A stretch of DNA of 64,000 bases from Arthrobacter caoxuetaonis. Its GTDB lineage: Bacteria; Actinomycetota; Actinomycetes; Actinomycetales; Micrococcaceae. The stretch's first letter is position 1. Each line of letters begins with the position of its first letter. A program made the translations under genes and the position numbers. Shown here piece by piece: positions 5,698-21,298 of this stretch. The stretch lies in contig NZ_CP099466.1 in the NCBI RefSeq assembly GCF_023921125.1, forward strand, positions 682,001 through 746,000. The letters are read 5' to 3'. The notes under the pieces were generated by a model. It worked only from the letters and a program-made list of their open reading frames with translations. It was not told the DNA's origin and searched no databases.

Positions 5698-6240
5698 TTA
5701 TGCCCCCGGGTTGAACTTCTTGAACTGCCGGTAAGCCTTTGACGCGTTGAAGAACTCCGTGGAGGGCTTCATCCACAGAACGACGACCGCTGCAACCGGG
5801 AGCAGCACGCCCAGGACGGTCAGTACCGCCATCAGGCCGCCGGCGCCTGCGCCGGCGAGGTTGAAGATGCCCAGGACAGCGAAAACGGTCGCTACGATTC
5901 GCGCCCAGTTGTGGCCCTTGCGGATAAACAGGGCTACCAGCAGAGCGATAGCGGTGCTGACGACAGCGAAGAACAGGGTCGTCATCAGGGCGACGCCGAT
6001 GATCATGTCGAGCTCTTCGGCCGTGAACTGGCCGCCCACGGTTGCCTGGTACTCGCTGGAGTTCAACCAGGAGATCCCAACCGGGATGCTGATGATGGTC
6101 AGGGCTGCAGCGGCAATCAAGAGCCAGAAGCCCAGGTCCACCTGCTTGGGGCGAACCGGTGCCGGCGGCGCTGCCGGTGCCTGGCCGCTCGAGTACGCGT
6201 TGTAGCTGTAATTGTTTGCCGGAGGCATTTGCTCGGACAT
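5698..6240 (-). CDS. membrane protein with four predicted TM segments, unknown function
   Basis: This encodes 180 residues. The N-terminal 40 are Pro/Ala/Tyr/Asn-rich and presumably cytosolic. Hydrophobic helices follow: LGFWLLIAAAALTIISIPVG, a second after ELDMIIGVAL, a third near ARIVATVFAVLG, and a fourth near VLTVLGVLLPVAAVVVLW. The C-terminal tail is short and basic. An upstream in-frame codon exists at 6264, but the ATG at 6240 is preferred because GAGGGG lies about 5 bases before it. The layout resembles small DUF4064/DUF4190-like actinobacterial membrane proteins; the function is unknown. Confidence 0.7.
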   Translation of the reverse strand: MSEQMPPANNYSYNAYSSGQAPAAPPAPVRPKQVDLGFWLLIAAAALTIISIPVGISWLNSSEYQATVGGQFTAEELDMIIGVALMTTLFFAVVSTAIALLVALFIRKGHNWARIVATVFAVLGIFNLAGAGAGGLMAVLTVLGVLLPVAAVVVLWMKPSTEFFNASKAYRQFKKFNPGA

Positions 6241-9042: not shown

Positions 9043-9702
9043 GTGGCCAAGCGCAGGATAGTCATCATCACCGCTGGGCTGGGTGTGCCCTCTTCCAGCC
9101 GCATGCTGGCCGACCAGCTGGGCGCCGCAGCCAGGGACGTGCTGACGGAGGCAGGGATCGACGCTGCCGTCACTACCCATGAGCTGCGTGAGTACGCAGT
9201 GGACATCGCGAACACCATGGTCGCCGGGTATGCACCGCCGAACCTGGAGGCGCTGCTCAACGAAGTGATCGACGCCGACGCGCTCATTGCGGTGACGCCG
9301 GTCTTCACGGCCTCGGTGTCCGGACTCTTCAAGTCCTTCTTCGACGTGATCGACAAGGACTCGCTGGACGGCAAGCCCGTGCTGATCGGGGCCACCGGCG
9401 GCAGCGCCCGGCACTCGATGGTGCTCGATTTCGCCATGCGGCCGCTGTTCGGATACCTCCGCGCCCGGCTGGTGCCCACCGCCGTCTACGCCGCGCCGGA
9501 AGACTGGGGAGCCGGTGCTTCCGGAGCCGCCGGCCTGGACCGCCGGGTGCGGCAGGCCGGCGCGGAACTGGCAGGCCTGCTGCGCGGCGGGACCGGCCTG
9601 CAGCAGGAGACTGCTCCCGCAGCGCCGGGCCGGACTGCGGTGCACGGCTCGATGGAGTCGCTGCCGTTCGAGGAGCTGCTGGCCCAGACCCAGCGGCGGT
9701 AG
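9043..9702 (+). CDS. NAD(P)H-dependent FMN reductase, flavodoxin-like fold (CE1759 family)
   Basis: This encodes 219 residues with the flavodoxin-like fold: RIVIITAGLGVPSSSRMLADQL at the N terminus is the phosphate-binding loop and first helix, and TPVFTASVSGLFKSFFDVID plus GATGGSARHS form the flavin site. Members of this family supply reduced FMN to luciferase-like monooxygenases; one such enzyme is encoded at 33455 but not next door. The GTG at 9043 is chosen over an in-frame ATG at 8998 because AAAGGGG precedes it and the protein then starts at the first strand. Confidence 0.8.
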   Translation: MAKRRIVIITAGLGVPSSSRMLADQLGAAARDVLTEAGIDAAVTTHELREYAVDIANTMVAGYAPPNLEALLNEVIDADALIAVTPVFTASVSGLFKSFFDVIDKDSLDGKPVLIGATGGSARHSMVLDFAMRPLFGYLRARLVPTAVYAAPEDWGAGASGAAGLDRRVRQAGAELAGLLRGGTGLQQETAPAAPGRTAVHGSMESLPFEELLAQTQRR

Positions 9703-16817: not shown

Positions 16818-17594
16818 TTATGCGCGGAAGAGGGCCGGTACGGTCTGCAGCAGCACTGCCAGGGCGACAGCAAAAATGAGGGCGGCGAAAACCCGGCTGA
16901 CGACGGCGTCGTTAAGGCGGTGGGCGATTCGCGCAGCTCCCAGCGAGGCGGCCATGGCTGCCGCAGCGAAGCTGAGAGTCAATGCCCAGTCAATGGAAAG
17001 CCCGTCCAGGTGTGCGGCGAAGCCGGACGCAGAGTTGATCACGATGATGACCAGGGACGTGCCAATCGCCCGGTGCATGGGAAGGCGAAGCAGCAGGGTG
17101 AGGGCGGGAATGATGAGGAAACCGCCGCCCACACCCAAAAGGCCGGTGAGGAAACCAACGGCCAGTCCGGTGGGAATGCCGCGCAGTGCCAGCTGGCCCC
17201 AGCGGTTGGCGCCCGGCTGTGACTGGACGTTGGATACCCCGGCGGCCAGCAGCATCCGCAGTCCCGCGACGATCATGATCAGGGCGAAGAACAGCATCAG
17301 CCAGTCCTTGTCCAGGCGTGCGCCGGCGGCAGCCCCCAGCCAGGAAGCCGGAATGCCTGCAGCTCCCACCAGCAGGACCAGCGGCCAGCTGACGTCCGAA
17401 CGCAGCCGGGGGAGGGCTCCTGCAAGGGAGGCCAGGCCCACGACGATCAGCGAGGTAGGCACCGCCTCGGCAGGCTCCAGTCCCACCACATAGACCAGTG
17501 CGGGGACGGCAATAATCGCTCCGCCGGCGCCGACCAGGCCCACCACGGCGCCGACCAGTACGCCGACAGCCAGGCCGATCAGCACCATGTCCAT
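16818..17594 (-). CDS. sulfite exporter TauE/SafE-family membrane permease (copy 1)
   Basis: This 258-residue integral membrane protein has the two-fold repeat of the TauE/SafE family: [20 protein letters not shown] in the first half and [19 protein letters not shown] in the second, with about eight hydrophobic helices. Members move sulfite, sulfoacetate, thiosulfate or other organosulfur anions. The frame is open further upstream, but the ATG at 17594 lies just before the first TM helix. The gene is divergent from a rhodanese/TauE pair across a 131-bp region holding two CsoR/CstR-type palindromes, so sulfide or persulfide control is likely. Confidence 0.82.
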
Positions 17595-17645
17595 GCCCGC
17601 AACATTCCCAGACAACCTGCTGTTCGAGAAGGCTTGGGAAATGGG

Positions 17646-17682
17646 ATACCCCCGGGGGTGTTTTGCATACCCCCATGGGTAT
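17646..17682. promoter_or_regulatory. pair of CsoR/CstR-type operators in the divergent TauE/rhodanese region
   Basis: Two G/C-tract palindromes lie 6 bases apart: ATACCCCCGGGGGTG (17646-17660) and ATACCCCCATGGGTAT (17667-17682). The second is a perfect ATACCC-N4-GGGTAT dyad. This is the form of operator known for CsoR-family regulators, including the persulfide sensor CstR. The same dyad occurs twice more at 20588-20627. They lie 44-80 bases upstream of the rhodanese start. Confidence 0.7.
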
Positions 17683-17725
17683 ATGGGAGCGTAGGGGTAC
17701 TCCCTATTCCTTTCGAAAGGACCCC

Positions 17726-18328
17726 ATGACTGCGACGCCTGCAGCCGTAACCTCCGTTGACGCCCAGACCCTCCGCACCTGGATGCAGGACCAGGAAGAC
17801 CTGATCGTCCTCGACGTCCGCTCCGCCGCCGAGTTCGAATCAATGCACATCCGCGGCTCCTATAACGTTCCGCTGCCGCTGCTCTCGGAGCACACCGATG
17901 CCTTGGCCGAACGGCTCGGCAAGCGTGTTGTACTGGTGTGCCAGTCCGGCACCCGGGCAGAACAGGCCCGCACCCGCCTGGGCGGCGCGGGCGTCGGTTT
18001 CGCCCATGTCCTGGCTGGCGGTGTCCCGGCGTTCGCAGCAGCGAACGGCGAGGTCGTCCGCGGCCAGCAGCGCTGGGACCTGGAACGCCAGGTGCGCATG
18101 GTGGCCGGCAGCGCCGTCGTGCTGGGCCTTGCCGGCGGCCGCTTTGTCTCGCCTAAGCTCCGCATGCTTGCCGGCGGCATCGGTGCCGGCCTGACTTTCT
18201 CCGCTGCCACCAACTCCTGCGCCATGGGCATGGTCCTGGCCAAGATGCCGTGGAACCGCACTTCTTCGGAGCCCACACGGGAATCGGCAATCGAGACCCT
18301 TCCCCAGCAGGGTCCTGCGGCCTCATGA
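17726..18328 (+). CDS. rhodanese with C-terminal DUF2892 membrane hairpin (YgaP-like)
   Basis: This encodes 200 residues. Residues 1-105 form a rhodanese domain with LDVRSAAEFESMHIRGS and the active-site loop VCQSGTR, where Cys72 would carry the persulfide. Residues about 125-185 hold two hydrophobic stretches of the DUF2892 type (SPKLRMLAGGIGAGL...NSCAMG), so the rhodanese domain is tethered to the inner face of the membrane. It would pass sulfane sulfur, perhaps to or from the neighbouring permeases. The start has GAAAGGAC upstream, and the stop overlaps the second TauE gene by ATGA. A paralogue is at 46573-47163. Confidence 0.85.
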   Translation: MTATPAAVTSVDAQTLRTWMQDQEDLIVLDVRSAAEFESMHIRGSYNVPLPLLSEHTDALAERLGKRVVLVCQSGTRAEQARTRLGGAGVGFAHVLAGGVPAFAAANGEVVRGQQRWDLERQVRMVAGSAVVLGLAGGRFVSPKLRMLAGGIGAGLTFSAATNSCAMGMVLAKMPWNRTSSEPTRESAIETLPQQGPAAS

Positions 18329-19086
18329 CCCCCACGCTCGCCCTCGTTCTTGGCCTGTCCCTGCTCATCGGCCTCTCCCTGGGGCTGCTGGGGGGAGGCG
18401 GTTCGATCCTCACGGTACCGATCCTGGTGTACATCGCCGGTTTCGGTGCGAAGGAAGCCATTGCGGCTTCGCTGTTTGTTGTGGGGGTGACCTCCGCCGT
18501 CAGCGTCATCGGGCACGCCCGCGGAGGGCGGGTCCGCTGGAAGACCGGACTGATCTTCGGTACCGCAGGTATGGCCGGAGCCTTCGGCGGCGGCCTGCTC
18601 GGCAGCCGCATCCCCGCCGTCGTGCTCATGATCGCCTTTGCGCTCATGATGATCGCGACGTCGATCGCTATGCTCCGCGGACGCCGCAAGGTCGATCCGG
18701 ATAAGGCCTACACCGACCTGCCGATTCTGCGGATCCTCGCAGACGGCGCCGTCGTGGGCCTGGTGACGGGACTGGTTGGCGCCGGCGGCGGGTTCCTGGT
18801 GGTTCCGGCACTGGCGCTGCTCGGCGGCATGCCGATGGCCATGGCTGTTGGCACGTCCCTGGTGGTCATCGCCATGAAGTCCTTTGCCGGCCTGGCAGGC
18901 TACCTGACCACCGTGCAGATCGACTGGAGCCTGACCCTGGCCGTGACTGCCATGGCGATTGTTGGGTCCTTGGCCGGCGCACGGCTGATCGGGAGGATTC
19001 CCGAGGCTGCCCTGCGGAAAGCCTTCGGCTGGTTTGTCCTGGCCATGGGTGCCTTTGTCCTGGTGCAGGAGCTCACCGGCTTGTAA
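18325..19086 (+). CDS. sulfite exporter TauE/SafE-family membrane permease (copy 2)
   Basis: This 253-residue permease has the repeated Gly-rich motifs GLLGGGGSILTVPILVYIAG and GLVGAGGGFLVVPALALLGG, about eight TM helices and a short loop (RRKVDPDKAYTDLP) between the halves. It is translationally coupled to the rhodanese gene by an ATGA overlap, and is paralogous to the permease at 16818-17594 on the other side of the operators. Together they probably export sulfite or thiosulfate formed by persulfide oxidation. Confidence 0.85.
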   Translation: MTPTLALVLGLSLLIGLSLGLLGGGGSILTVPILVYIAGFGAKEAIAASLFVVGVTSAVSVIGHARGGRVRWKTGLIFGTAGMAGAFGGGLLGSRIPAVVLMIAFALMMIATSIAMLRGRRKVDPDKAYTDLPILRILADGAVVGLVTGLVGAGGGFLVVPALALLGGMPMAMAVGTSLVVIAMKSFAGLAGYLTTVQIDWSLTLAVTAMAIVGSLAGARLIGRIPEAALRKAFGWFVLAMGAFVLVQELTGL

Positions 19087-19109
19087 TACCGTTTCCTGCG
19101 CAACATACA

Positions 19110-19140
19110 AACCCCGGCCCGCAATATGCGGACCGGGGTT
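19110..19140. terminator. bidirectional terminator between convergent sulfur genes
   Basis: AACCCCGG and CCGGGGTT form an 8-bp stem, with an inner CCGC/GCGG pairing. On the plus strand AGTTTCG follows; on the minus strand TGTATGTTG follows. It separates the TauE gene from the convergent dioxygenase gene. Confidence 0.6.
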
Positions 19141-19154
19141 AGTTTCGCCGGGGG

Positions 19155-20546
19155 TTAGGAAGCGTGAGCGGCAGCCCAGGCGGGGTAGGCGCCTTCCAGC
19201 TCGACGACGTCGTACCCGGCGTTGCGCAGGGCATTGCCGACGATCGAGCTGCGCATGCCGCTGGCGCAGTACGCCACAATCGTGCCATCGGAGGGCAGCT
19301 GGTCCAGGTTCCACAGGGCGCGGCCGCCGTGCAGCTGGTGCGAGCCGGGGATGTGGCCCGCGGCGTGCTCCGTGCGGGAGCGGACGTCCAGCACCATGGC
19401 TGTGTCGAACGGGTCCAGGTCCGTGGCGGAGATGGTGGCCGGCGCGGCCTGGGGGAGTCCGTCAAGGCTGGAAACGAAGCCGGCGACGTCGTCAATGCCT
19501 ACGCGGGCCAGGGCATCACGAACGGCGTGGGCCTGGGCCTGATCTGCGGTGAGCAGGATCAGCGGGCGCGTGTTTTCGGACTCGGGGTCGACGGCCCAGG
19601 CTCCGAAGCTGGCAGTCTTGCCGCCGGCGGGAATGTGCAGGGCACCGGGGACGGTTCCCTTGTGCAGGTCGGCCACGCCGCGGGTGTCCACAAAGGTGGC
19701 CTTCCCGGTCTCCAAGCGGGATGCGACGTCGGTTGCGGGGATTTCCGTGAGCGGTTCACGCGGGCCCATCACTGCCGGACCCTGCTTGTTCTGCTTCTTC
19801 ATGCGGGCGAAGTAAGCGTGGGCCTCGGGCTGTCCGTCGAGGAGTTCGTTGATGAAGGCCTGCTCGTCGTTGGCTGCGAGGTAGGGGCCCCACCAGGCGT
19901 ACAGGCGCTCGTAACCCACGGTGGAGGACGGGATGGCGCCCAGCGCCTTGCCGCAGGCGCTGCCTGCGCCGTGGCCGGGGTGGACCTGCACGTAATCGGG
20001 CAGGGTCAGGAACTTGTCCCGCAGGCTGGCGAACATCTGCCGTGCGCCTTCGAAGCGGGTGTCAACGCCGCCGGCTGCTTCATCGAGCAGGTCGGGGCGG
20101 CCGAGGTCTCCGGCGAAGACGAAGTCACCGGAGAGCAGGTAGCCGGCCTGGTCGCTGAAGGCGCCGTCAGTGACCAGGAAGGAGAGGTGCTCTGGGGTGT
20201 GGCCCGGAGTGTGCAGCGCCTTGATGGTGAGGTTGCCGATGGTGATCGCATCGCCGTCGAACATCCGCGTGCCCTCGAAGCCGTACTGCCAGTCGGTGCC
20301 GCCTTCGCCGGAAACGTAGATGGCTGCACCGGTGGCGGCGGCGAGCTCACGCGTGCCGGAGAGGTAGTCGGCGTGGATGTGGGTTTCCGTCACCGCAGTG
20401 ATCTTCATGCCGTTGGCGGCAGCAAGTTCGAGGTAGGGCGCGACGTCGCGGCGGGCGTCAACGACGATAGCCTCGCCCAGCCGCTGGCAGCCGATGAAGT
20501 AGCTGGCCTGGGCCAGGTCCTCGTCATAGATGCGTTCGATAAGCAT
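19155..20546 (-). CDS. persulfide dioxygenase-rhodanese fusion (MBL fold, CstB-like)
   Basis: This encodes 463 residues. The N-terminal metallo-beta-lactamase domain has the iron site typical of persulfide dioxygenases: THIHADY (His56, His58, Asp60), HTPGHTPEHLSF, SGDFVFAGDLGRPD and VHPGHGAGSACGK. Two rhodanese domains follow. The first (about 275-365) has no Cys in its loop (LLTADQAQAH); the second (about 380-463) has the active CASGMRSS. Such fusions oxidise glutathione/CoA/bacillithiol-like persulfides to sulfite and move sulfane sulfur to form thiosulfate. GGAGGAA precedes the ATG, and two CsoR/CstR-type palindromes lie 42-81 bases upstream. Confidence 0.9.
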   Translation of the reverse strand: MLIERIYDEDLAQASYFIGCQRLGEAIVVDARRDVAPYLELAAANGMKITAVTETHIHADYLSGTRELAAATGAAIYVSGEGGTDWQYGFEGTRMFDGDAITIGNLTIKALHTPGHTPEHLSFLVTDGAFSDQAGYLLSGDFVFAGDLGRPDLLDEAAGGVDTRFEGARQMFASLRDKFLTLPDYVQVHPGHGAGSACGKALGAIPSSTVGYERLYAWWGPYLAANDEQAFINELLDGQPEAHAYFARMKKQNKQGPAVMGPREPLTEIPATDVASRLETGKATFVDTRGVADLHKGTVPGALHIPAGGKTASFGAWAVDPESENTRPLILLTADQAQAHAVRDALARVGIDDVAGFVSSLDGLPQAAPATISATDLDPFDTAMVLDVRSRTEHAAGHIPGSHQLHGGRALWNLDQLPSDGTIVAYCASGMRSSIVGNALRNAGYDVVELEGAYPAWAAAHAS

Positions 20547-20587
20547 GGGTTCCTCCGTGGGGATGGGGTTCTGTTCCCTCCACGGTA

Positions 20588-20627
20588 ATACCCCCTAGGG
20601 TATAAACCCAAATACCCGAGGGGGTAT
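20588..20627. promoter_or_regulatory. pair of CsoR/CstR-type operators upstream of the persulfide dioxygenase gene
   Basis: Two perfect dyads with 6-base arms are present: ATACCCCCTAGGGTAT (20588-20603) and ATACCCGAGGGGGTAT (20612-20627). They match the palindromes at 17646-17682 in arm sequence and spacing, so one regulator probably controls all three sulfur transcription units. Confidence 0.72.
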
Positions 20628-20701: not shown

Positions 20702-20743
20702 ATAAATCTGATTTATTCGCGGCGAAGCCACAGCAAATCAGAT
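20702..20743. promoter_or_regulatory. candidate operator of the gluconate operon
   Basis: ATAAATC-T-GATTTAT (20702-20716) is a perfect 7-bp dyad. A second half, AAATCAGAT (20735-20743), is the reverse complement of ATCTGATTT inside the first. These A/T-rich sites stand out in GC-rich sequence and lie 28-69 bases before gntK. The FCD-type GntR regulator at 26889-27635 is the natural candidate to bind here (inference). Confidence 0.45.
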
Positions 20744-20770
20744 GTAATGGAGCGTCTGAGGAGTTTGGCC

Positions 20771-21298
20771 ATGCCGTTGGCGAACAATTCGTATCCGCCT
20801 GTCGTCGTCATGGGCGTACAGGGATGCGGCAAATCCACCGCCGGACGGGCCATCGCGGCCACTCTGGGCCTGCCGTTCCTGGACGGAGATGACCTGCACC
20901 CGGCCAGCAACAAAGCCAAAATGGCCTCCGGGCACCCGCTGACCGATGAGGACCGCGAACCCTGGCTCCGTGCCATTGGCGCTGAAATCGAGGCAGGCCT
21001 GGCGAAGGGCACTGCGACAGTGGTTGCCTGTTCCGCCCTGAAGCGGCAGTACCGGGACCTCATCCGTTCCTACGCGCCGACTGTGCAGTTCGTTCACTTG
21101 GACGGTTCGCGCGAACTGATCGCCGAACGCCTCTCCAAGCGCGACCACGAGTACATGCCGCCGACCCTGCTGGACTCCCAGTTCGCCACCCTTGAACCTC
21201 TCGGCGATGACGAGGCCGGAATCCGGCTGGACATCACGCTGAGCCTTGGCGAGATTGCCGCTGCAGCGGCAGCCGCCGTCGAACCCTCCGGGCACTAA
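20771..21298 (+). CDS. gntK: gluconokinase
   Basis: This 175-residue kinase makes 6-phosphogluconate from gluconate and ATP. The P-loop MGVQGCGKST lies at about residues 14-23, FLDGDDLHPASNKAKMASGHPLTDEDR is the family fingerprint for gluconate binding, and ACSALKRQYRD follows. The length is normal. Upstream in-frame ATGs exist at 20654 and 20747, but 20771 is chosen because GAGGAG sits 8 bases before it and it matches the usual N terminus. It is the first gene of the gluconate/idonate operon; GntP follows 32 bp downstream. Confidence 0.9.
   Translation: MPLANNSYPPVVVMGVQGCGKSTAGRAIAATLGLPFLDGDDLHPASNKAKMASGHPLTDEDREPWLRAIGAEIEAGLAKGTATVVACSALKRQYRDLIRSYAPTVQFVHLDGSRELIAERLSKRDHEYMPPTLLDSQFATLEPLGDDEAGIRLDITLSLGEIAAAAAAAVEPSGH

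Follow-up and report, generated by a model that had tools for sequence, protein, structure and literature searches.

Introduction

As far as the accessible sections of the respective papers describe them, the systems closest to the sulfur island considered here place persulfide dioxygenase (PDO), rhodanese and transporter genes under a repressor of the CsoR family. In Streptomyces coelicolor, the two-Cys repressor ScCsoR binds ATACCn6GGTAT before pdo and is released by polysulfide; it controls its own gene and those for the PDO, a rhodanese and TauE, and the four form one cluster (PMC7533328). In Staphylococcus aureus, the two-Cys CstR is thought to control a single operon directly, with tauE, the multidomain sulfurtransferase CstA, the dioxygenase-sulfurtransferase CstB and sqr (PMC5480029), while the YrkD cluster of Bacillus licheniformis shares the CstR-like sulfane-sulfur-sensing repressor, the PDO and rhodanese-type genes but is an eleven-gene cis cluster with sqr and a second, sulfide-responsive control by NreBC (PMC9918477). 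The island described here lies in a 64,000-nucleotide stretch of the Arthrobacter caoxuetaonis genome ("the window", C1:682001-746000, contig NZ_CP099466.1; genome 3.93 Mb, two contigs) and is very probably one part of a split CstR regulon, run by a CstR-like repressor encoded elsewhere on the chromosome and induced by sulfane sulfur.

The island is of a known kind, a sulfane-sulfur circuit of actinobacteria governed by a CstR-type repressor, with the split as a variant. The regulator, PDO, rhodanese and TauE of S. coelicolor are all present and the operator motif is the same, control here being predicted; unlike in that species, cstR is about 1.04 Mb away, and there are in addition a second TauE, a membrane rhodanese and, at the cstR promoter, a gene for a Cys-rich protein of 58 amino acids (aa), a type of gene that goes unmentioned in the covered sections of the S. 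coelicolor paper (PMC7533328). Whereas S. aureus CstR is assigned one operon, the sites here occupy three promoter regions at two distant loci (PMC5480029); sqr was not searched for. The SUL module of Antarctic Arthrobacter plasmids, unlike the present system, is arranged in cis on a plasmid, with a major facilitator superfamily (MFS) transporter and a DUF302 gene; on pA58H2 a match to the 58-aa protein stands between the regulator and the MBL (metallo-beta-lactamase) gene, and the covered parts of that paper contain no operator or small-protein analysis (PMC6305408).

Results

Re-calling the genes of the window returned two TauE/SafE permeases, a membrane rhodanese and a CstB-like dioxygenase-rhodanese fusion around two operator pairs (Table 1), the arrangement that an earlier sequence-only reading had proposed. 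That reading had also found CsoR/CstR-type operators without a local regulator, and had suggested a genome search for a two-Cys CsoR-family protein and for further sites. Our search with PF02583 found two CsoR-family genes in the whole genome, at C1:1560117 and C1:1737943, and none within the window. The outcome that would have overturned that reading, a genome devoid of the family, did not occur. One of them, a CstR-like gene of 85 aa (C1:1737925-1738179; PF02583 E 4.1e-23, 82 bits against a cut-off of 22.8), lies about 1.04 Mb from the dioxygenase gene (C1:701158) and supplies the candidate regulator. Its product has Cys35 and Cys64, 29 residues apart, and Gly60 where the other family member, a copper-type, RicR-like paralogue, has His; all three residues recur in 26 of the 26 congeneric CstR orthologues read, and the protein aligned with its best PDB match, 7mq1, at both Cys. 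The further sites were found at its own promoter, as a pair (ATACCCCCTCGGGTAA and ATACCCCAGGGGGTAT, together C1:1738213-1738249, 21 bp apart, one with a single mismatch at C1:1738213 and one perfect) that is the genome's only operator pair outside the island and has the same 5-bp linker, TTTGC, as the operator 1/2 pair. There are, then, three operator pairs in three promoter regions, that of cstR and those before the sulfur genes. With the family fold, two Cys, no copper-ligand His and an operator of its own, the CstR-like protein is predicted to be of the persulfide-sensor type.

Perfect matches to the operator pattern ATACCC-N4-GGGTAT number four in the 3.93-Mb genome, against 0.116 expected by base composition (Poisson P 7e-6). 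With one mismatch or none there are seven places against 5.0 expected, namely the island's four, the two at the cstR promoter and a lone site at C1:19272; because of this expectation lone one-mismatch sites prove nothing, and it is the perfect sites and the pairing that count. The backwards pattern, used as a control, has one place with one mismatch or fewer. Within the window, 23 matches with up to three mismatches compare with a shuffle mean of 11.7 (100 shuffles, one of which reached 23). Three of the four island operators are perfect (starts 17667, 20588 and 20612), as had been claimed. Counted start to start, the spacing is 21 bp in the rhodanese pair and 24 bp in the dioxygenase pair, compared with about 22-24 bases in the earlier reading. 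It is not constant among relatives: the 62 distinct pairs fall into three groups, at 20-24, 33-37 and 44-45 bp, apart from single cases of 54 and 57 bp. A helical phasing of these spacings (R 0.64 against 0.12 for uniform) was set aside because the 62 pairs come from related genomes.

In CstB, an MBL domain is followed by two rhodanese domains, one of them with a Cys loop. The dioxygenase gene of the island encodes the same layout, with the loop CASGMR in the second rhodanese domain and, on reading the sequence, no Cys loop at the equivalent place of the first; its best PDB matches, 3tp9 (E 2.5e-105) and 3r2u (E 1.4e-84), run near full length.

In a survey of 29 congeneric genomes, our own included, 26 have both the dioxygenase and a CstR orthologue (at least 71% identical), the other three have neither, and all 29 have a RicR-like match. 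Of the 26 with CstR, 25 have perfect N4 sites; of the 3 without it, none does (P 0.001, genomes not independent). The cstR gene lies within 2 kb of the dioxygenase gene in 19 of 26 genomes and apart from it in seven, six of which form a clade (G000, G003, G005, G010, G011, G014); in the seventh, G013, the two genes are 279 kb apart on one contig. Dioxygenases of the split clade are 89-93% identical to the present one, versus at most 74% for other full-length ones. The distance between the two genes is unmeasured in five clade drafts because they lie on different contigs. All six clade genomes have a gene for the same 218-aa protein adjoining cstR and the small gene, and all six keep the cstR pair at 21-bp spacing and the dioxygenase promoter pair at 24 bp. 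We infer an ancestral split of the cluster, with operators retained on both parts. In another congener, the match to the dioxygenase falls into two overlapping stretches (G022:C1:791750-792867), and the gene looks interrupted.

Operator binding, persulfide sensing, enzyme activity and transport may be sketched by analogy with characterised relatives. The CstR-like repressor would bind the paired operators in the three promoter regions, those of TauE1/rhodanese-TauE2, of the dioxygenase-rhodanese gene and of cstR/58-aa gene. When sulfane sulfur rises, persulfide would react with Cys35/Cys64, the repressor would leave the DNA and all units would be induced; the rhodaneses would hand sulfane sulfur on, the dioxygenase would oxidise it to sulfite and the TauE permeases would export the sulfite. 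As sulfane sulfur falls, freshly made repressor would switch the system off.

The 58-aa open reading frame (ORF; L002:1869-2045) faces away from cstR across the intervening operator pair and is preceded by a ribosome-binding-like sequence. Pairwise differences among 23 congeneric copies, 1811, 1191 and 4164 by codon position, have the pattern of a coding gene. It is present in 24 of the 29 genomes, absent from three that have CstR (G004, G017, G018) and present in one without CstR and dioxygenase (G028). Of the 24 copies, 23 have an operator with at most one mismatch in the 300 bp upstream (21 by script, and G012 and G023 from coordinates, the script having missed their start), the exception being G028; in G006, G023 and G024 the operator is still there with the small gene far from both cstR and the dioxygenase gene. 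We read the protein as a putative overlooked member of actinobacterial persulfide regulons, and from position and operator only we infer that it serves the same response as the CstR regulon. It is the more interesting result than the island itself.

All 67 members of an alignment (A2) share C2, C7, C10, C18, H21 and C35. At position 37/38, 50 have only His38, 14 only Cys37, one has both residues and two have neither. Together these features suggest metal ligands. A wider set of 51 members (A4) keeps G17, G19, H21 and C35 invariant; C2, C10 and C18 are so too, the members having been picked by a pattern that demands Cys there (three of 53 copies did not fit it and were left out). Removal of the initiator Met by Met aminopeptidase would make Cys2 N-terminal. 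A PDB profile search gave no match up to E 10. Membership in Pfam families was not accepted for A2 (NRIP1_repr_3 in 2 of 67, best E 5.4e-5; DUF702 in 12 of 67, best E 0.035), nor was membership in NCBIfam (best E 0.045). The profile of the 51 rows matched 5,060 proteins (clustered at 90% identity), and among the matches listed (120 per profile search) none carries a Pfam domain. The closest named relatives of the genome found with the small protein belong to Arthrobacter. Our literature search, with most subscription papers beyond reach, found no study characterising the protein, its sole mention being as a "small hypothetical protein" (PMC6305408, parts covered).

Beyond the genus, we found 28 named loci and used 27, a match in Acetobacteraceae (L125) having been dropped as lying inside a larger unrelated ORF. 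In 24 of the 27 (exceptions L112, L114 and L124), the 450 bp before the small gene contain an operator with at most one mismatch, and 15 of the 27 have a CstR match. A Mycolicibacterium locus (L115) holds two small-gene copies (6001-6171 and 9422-9544) in a cluster with CstR, PDO and TauE matches.

In a draw of 396 genomes from the phylum, 48 have the small gene, in 54 copies, two with an internal stop. Of the 53 copies outside our own genome, 23 have a CsoR-family gene within 5 kb (15 within 600 bp), against 0.25 expected by chance (75 PF02583 genes in 159.1 Mb); our own hidden Markov models were trained partly on these loci, but the independent PF02583 list contains all 23 places as well. 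Twenty copies have an operator between -400 and +30 relative to the start, 31 have one somewhere within 5 kb, and 34 have at least one feature out of operator, CsoR, PDO, rhodanese and TauE. For the 48 copies whose start was placed by pattern, a site lies within 300 bp upstream in 14, compared with 0 for the reversed pattern and a mean of 0.03 for shuffles. Perfect sites occur in 28 of the 48 genomes with the small gene versus 76 of the 348 without (odds ratio 5.0, P 6e-7; relatedness not removed). One family of the draw (f22: G072, G107, G290, G321, G376) has 15-33 perfect operators and no small gene was found in it; the sites may mark a CsoR-type regulon of large size or a repeat that has nothing to do with one.

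Two results speak against a link of the small gene to the persulfide regulon: 19 of the 53 copies lack operator, CsoR, PDO, rhodanese and TauE alike, and 9 of the 47 genomes that contain the gene possess no CsoR-family member. Among the neighbours of the 19 (59 of 96 candidate ORFs scanned), no family occurs in more than two ORFs, best 25 of 54 families. Five of them (L159, L160, L166, L171, L173) carry a palindrome, WTGTCCGKACAW, 15-60 bp before the small gene, and a scan of the 53 loci gave one other match, away from the start; the result is post hoc, because the palindrome was spotted by eye and then scanned in the same loci.

In several lineages the small gene clusters with an MBL/PDO, rhodanese, TauE or CXXC thioredoxin-like gene, and at one locus a thioredoxin-like ORF (WCGPC, by eye), the small gene and TauE stand in a row. 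The family is matched by 66 plasmid records; of five chosen plasmids, all have a "metal-sensitive transcriptional regulator" within 6 kb, three an MBL gene, four a rhodanese and three a TauE gene. No annotated feature underlies the match in 34 of 40 listed plasmid records (gene annotation in that collection is known to have gaps), and genes of this length are easily overlooked. A phage record (MT835623.1:19139-19300, unannotated) also holds a match, 48% identical.

Discussion

Several points weigh against a split CstR regulon. For this organism, binding and expression are predictions from sequence, and because cstR lies a long way from the genes that it would control, the link depends on shared operators and on co-occurrence. 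In congener G018, which has both CstR and the dioxygenase, there is no perfect site, though its cstR locus has a pair with one mismatch each. Persulfidation of ScCsoR is reportedly confined to Cys37, which sets it apart from S. aureus CstR. The TauE substrate and the rhodanese roles are presumed.

The operators might instead belong to a copper-type RicR/CsoR-like repressor, making the island copper-responsive. CsoR, RicR and CstR operators are alike, the S. coelicolor motif having been derived jointly with copper CsoR and RicR sites (PMC7533328, sections covered), and the genome's other PF02583 member has RicR as its best NCBIfam match (118.6 bits, below the model cut-off of 175). That gene, however, has a single N4 operator match, with three mismatches, and is preceded by ATACCGGAGGGGGGTAT, presumably its own operator, of the form ATACC-N7-GGTAT, with a middle one base longer than in the N4 operator (N7 versus N6 between ATACC and GGTAT); only two such sites exist genome-wide, at C1:1560011 and C1:327565, neither in the island. 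Moreover, the three congeners with the RicR-like gene and without CstR all have zero perfect N4 sites, and the gene content is that of sulfur, not copper. On operator spacing and the genus survey we rejected copper control through the RicR-like gene as the leading explanation and regard it as highly improbable. It is doubtful, too, that the paired sites are single promoter-embedded operators whose weaker second site is a remnant rather than the place of a second tetramer: each 21-bp pair of the genome does have one imperfect site (17646-17661; C1:1738213) and spacings differ among relatives, but the six clade genomes keep both pairs, and ScCsoR has two sites in the pdo promoter (PMC7533328).

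That the small protein is a zinc or copper buffer sharing only the cstR promoter, with no direct sulfur role, is a real possibility, if on balance not a probable one: the invariant Cys/His set and a position 37/38 resembling a Cys/His metal-ligand swap fit it, as do a relative named predicted Zn-ribbon protein by its source, the zinc-limitation response that sulfide triggers in S. aureus (PMC5480029, parts covered) and the genomes without a CsoR-family gene and copies without operator or sulfur neighbour counted above. The operator kept where the gene stands apart from cstR and dioxygenase, and the clustering with sulfur and thioredoxin-like genes in several lineages, argue the other way, and metal binding and a sulfur role are mutually compatible. 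We tentatively suggest that it might be a dedicated component of persulfide defence in actinobacteria. As a small zinc-ribbon-like carrier of sulfane sulfur, or as a buffer for persulfide and zinc, it would pass sulfur among rhodanese, dioxygenase and possibly thioredoxin, and in lineages lacking CsoR it would be under another repressor, for which WTGTCCGKACAW would be a candidate site.

With a split CstR regulon, a seemingly unregulated sulfur island becomes a complete, testable one, and such a regulon can be divided across the chromosome with its operators kept. It would also tie an unnamed small-protein family to persulfide control in many actinobacteria; if that family handles sulfane sulfur, a missing piece of the Streptomyces and staphylococcal pathway becomes directly testable.

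Layout of the island

Table 1. Genes, operators and a hairpin of the sulfur island, in window positions.
Feature	Position	Strand	Evidence
TauE/SafE permease 1, 258 aa, left arm of divergent promoter	16818-17594	-	PF01925 E 2.2e-50
Operator 1, ATACCCCCGGGGGTGT, 1 mismatch	17646-17661		pattern scan
Operator 2, ATACCCCCATGGGTAT, perfect; 21 bp from operator 1	17667-17682		pattern scan
Rhodanese + YgaP-like membrane domain, 200 aa	17726-18328	+	PF00581 E 2e-14, PF11127 E 7.5e-8
TauE/SafE permease 2, 253 aa; start overlaps rhodanese stop	18325-19086	+	PF01925 E 2.3e-50
Terminator-like hairpin of 14 pairs separating the convergent genes for TauE2 and the dioxygenase	19110-19140	-	consensus scan; by itself no functional evidence
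Persulfide dioxygenase-type MBL + two rhodanese domains, 463 aa	19155-20546	-	PF00753, two PF00581 stretches
Operator 3, ATACCCCCTAGGGTAT, perfect	20588-20603		pattern scan
Operator 4, ATACCCGAGGGGGTAT, perfect; 24 bp from operator 3	20612-20627		pattern scan

A scan for sigma-70 promoters found none, as expected in a high-GC genome. The dioxygenase operator pair is also upstream of a gluconokinase gene, gntK (window 20723-21298, + strand; TIGR01313 over cut-off), which starts about 95 bp past the pair and stands beside the island in four of six clade loci (the loci being short). In S. aureus, gntK and gntR are sulfide-induced as well (PMC5480029, parts covered), a parallel that is probably a coincidence.

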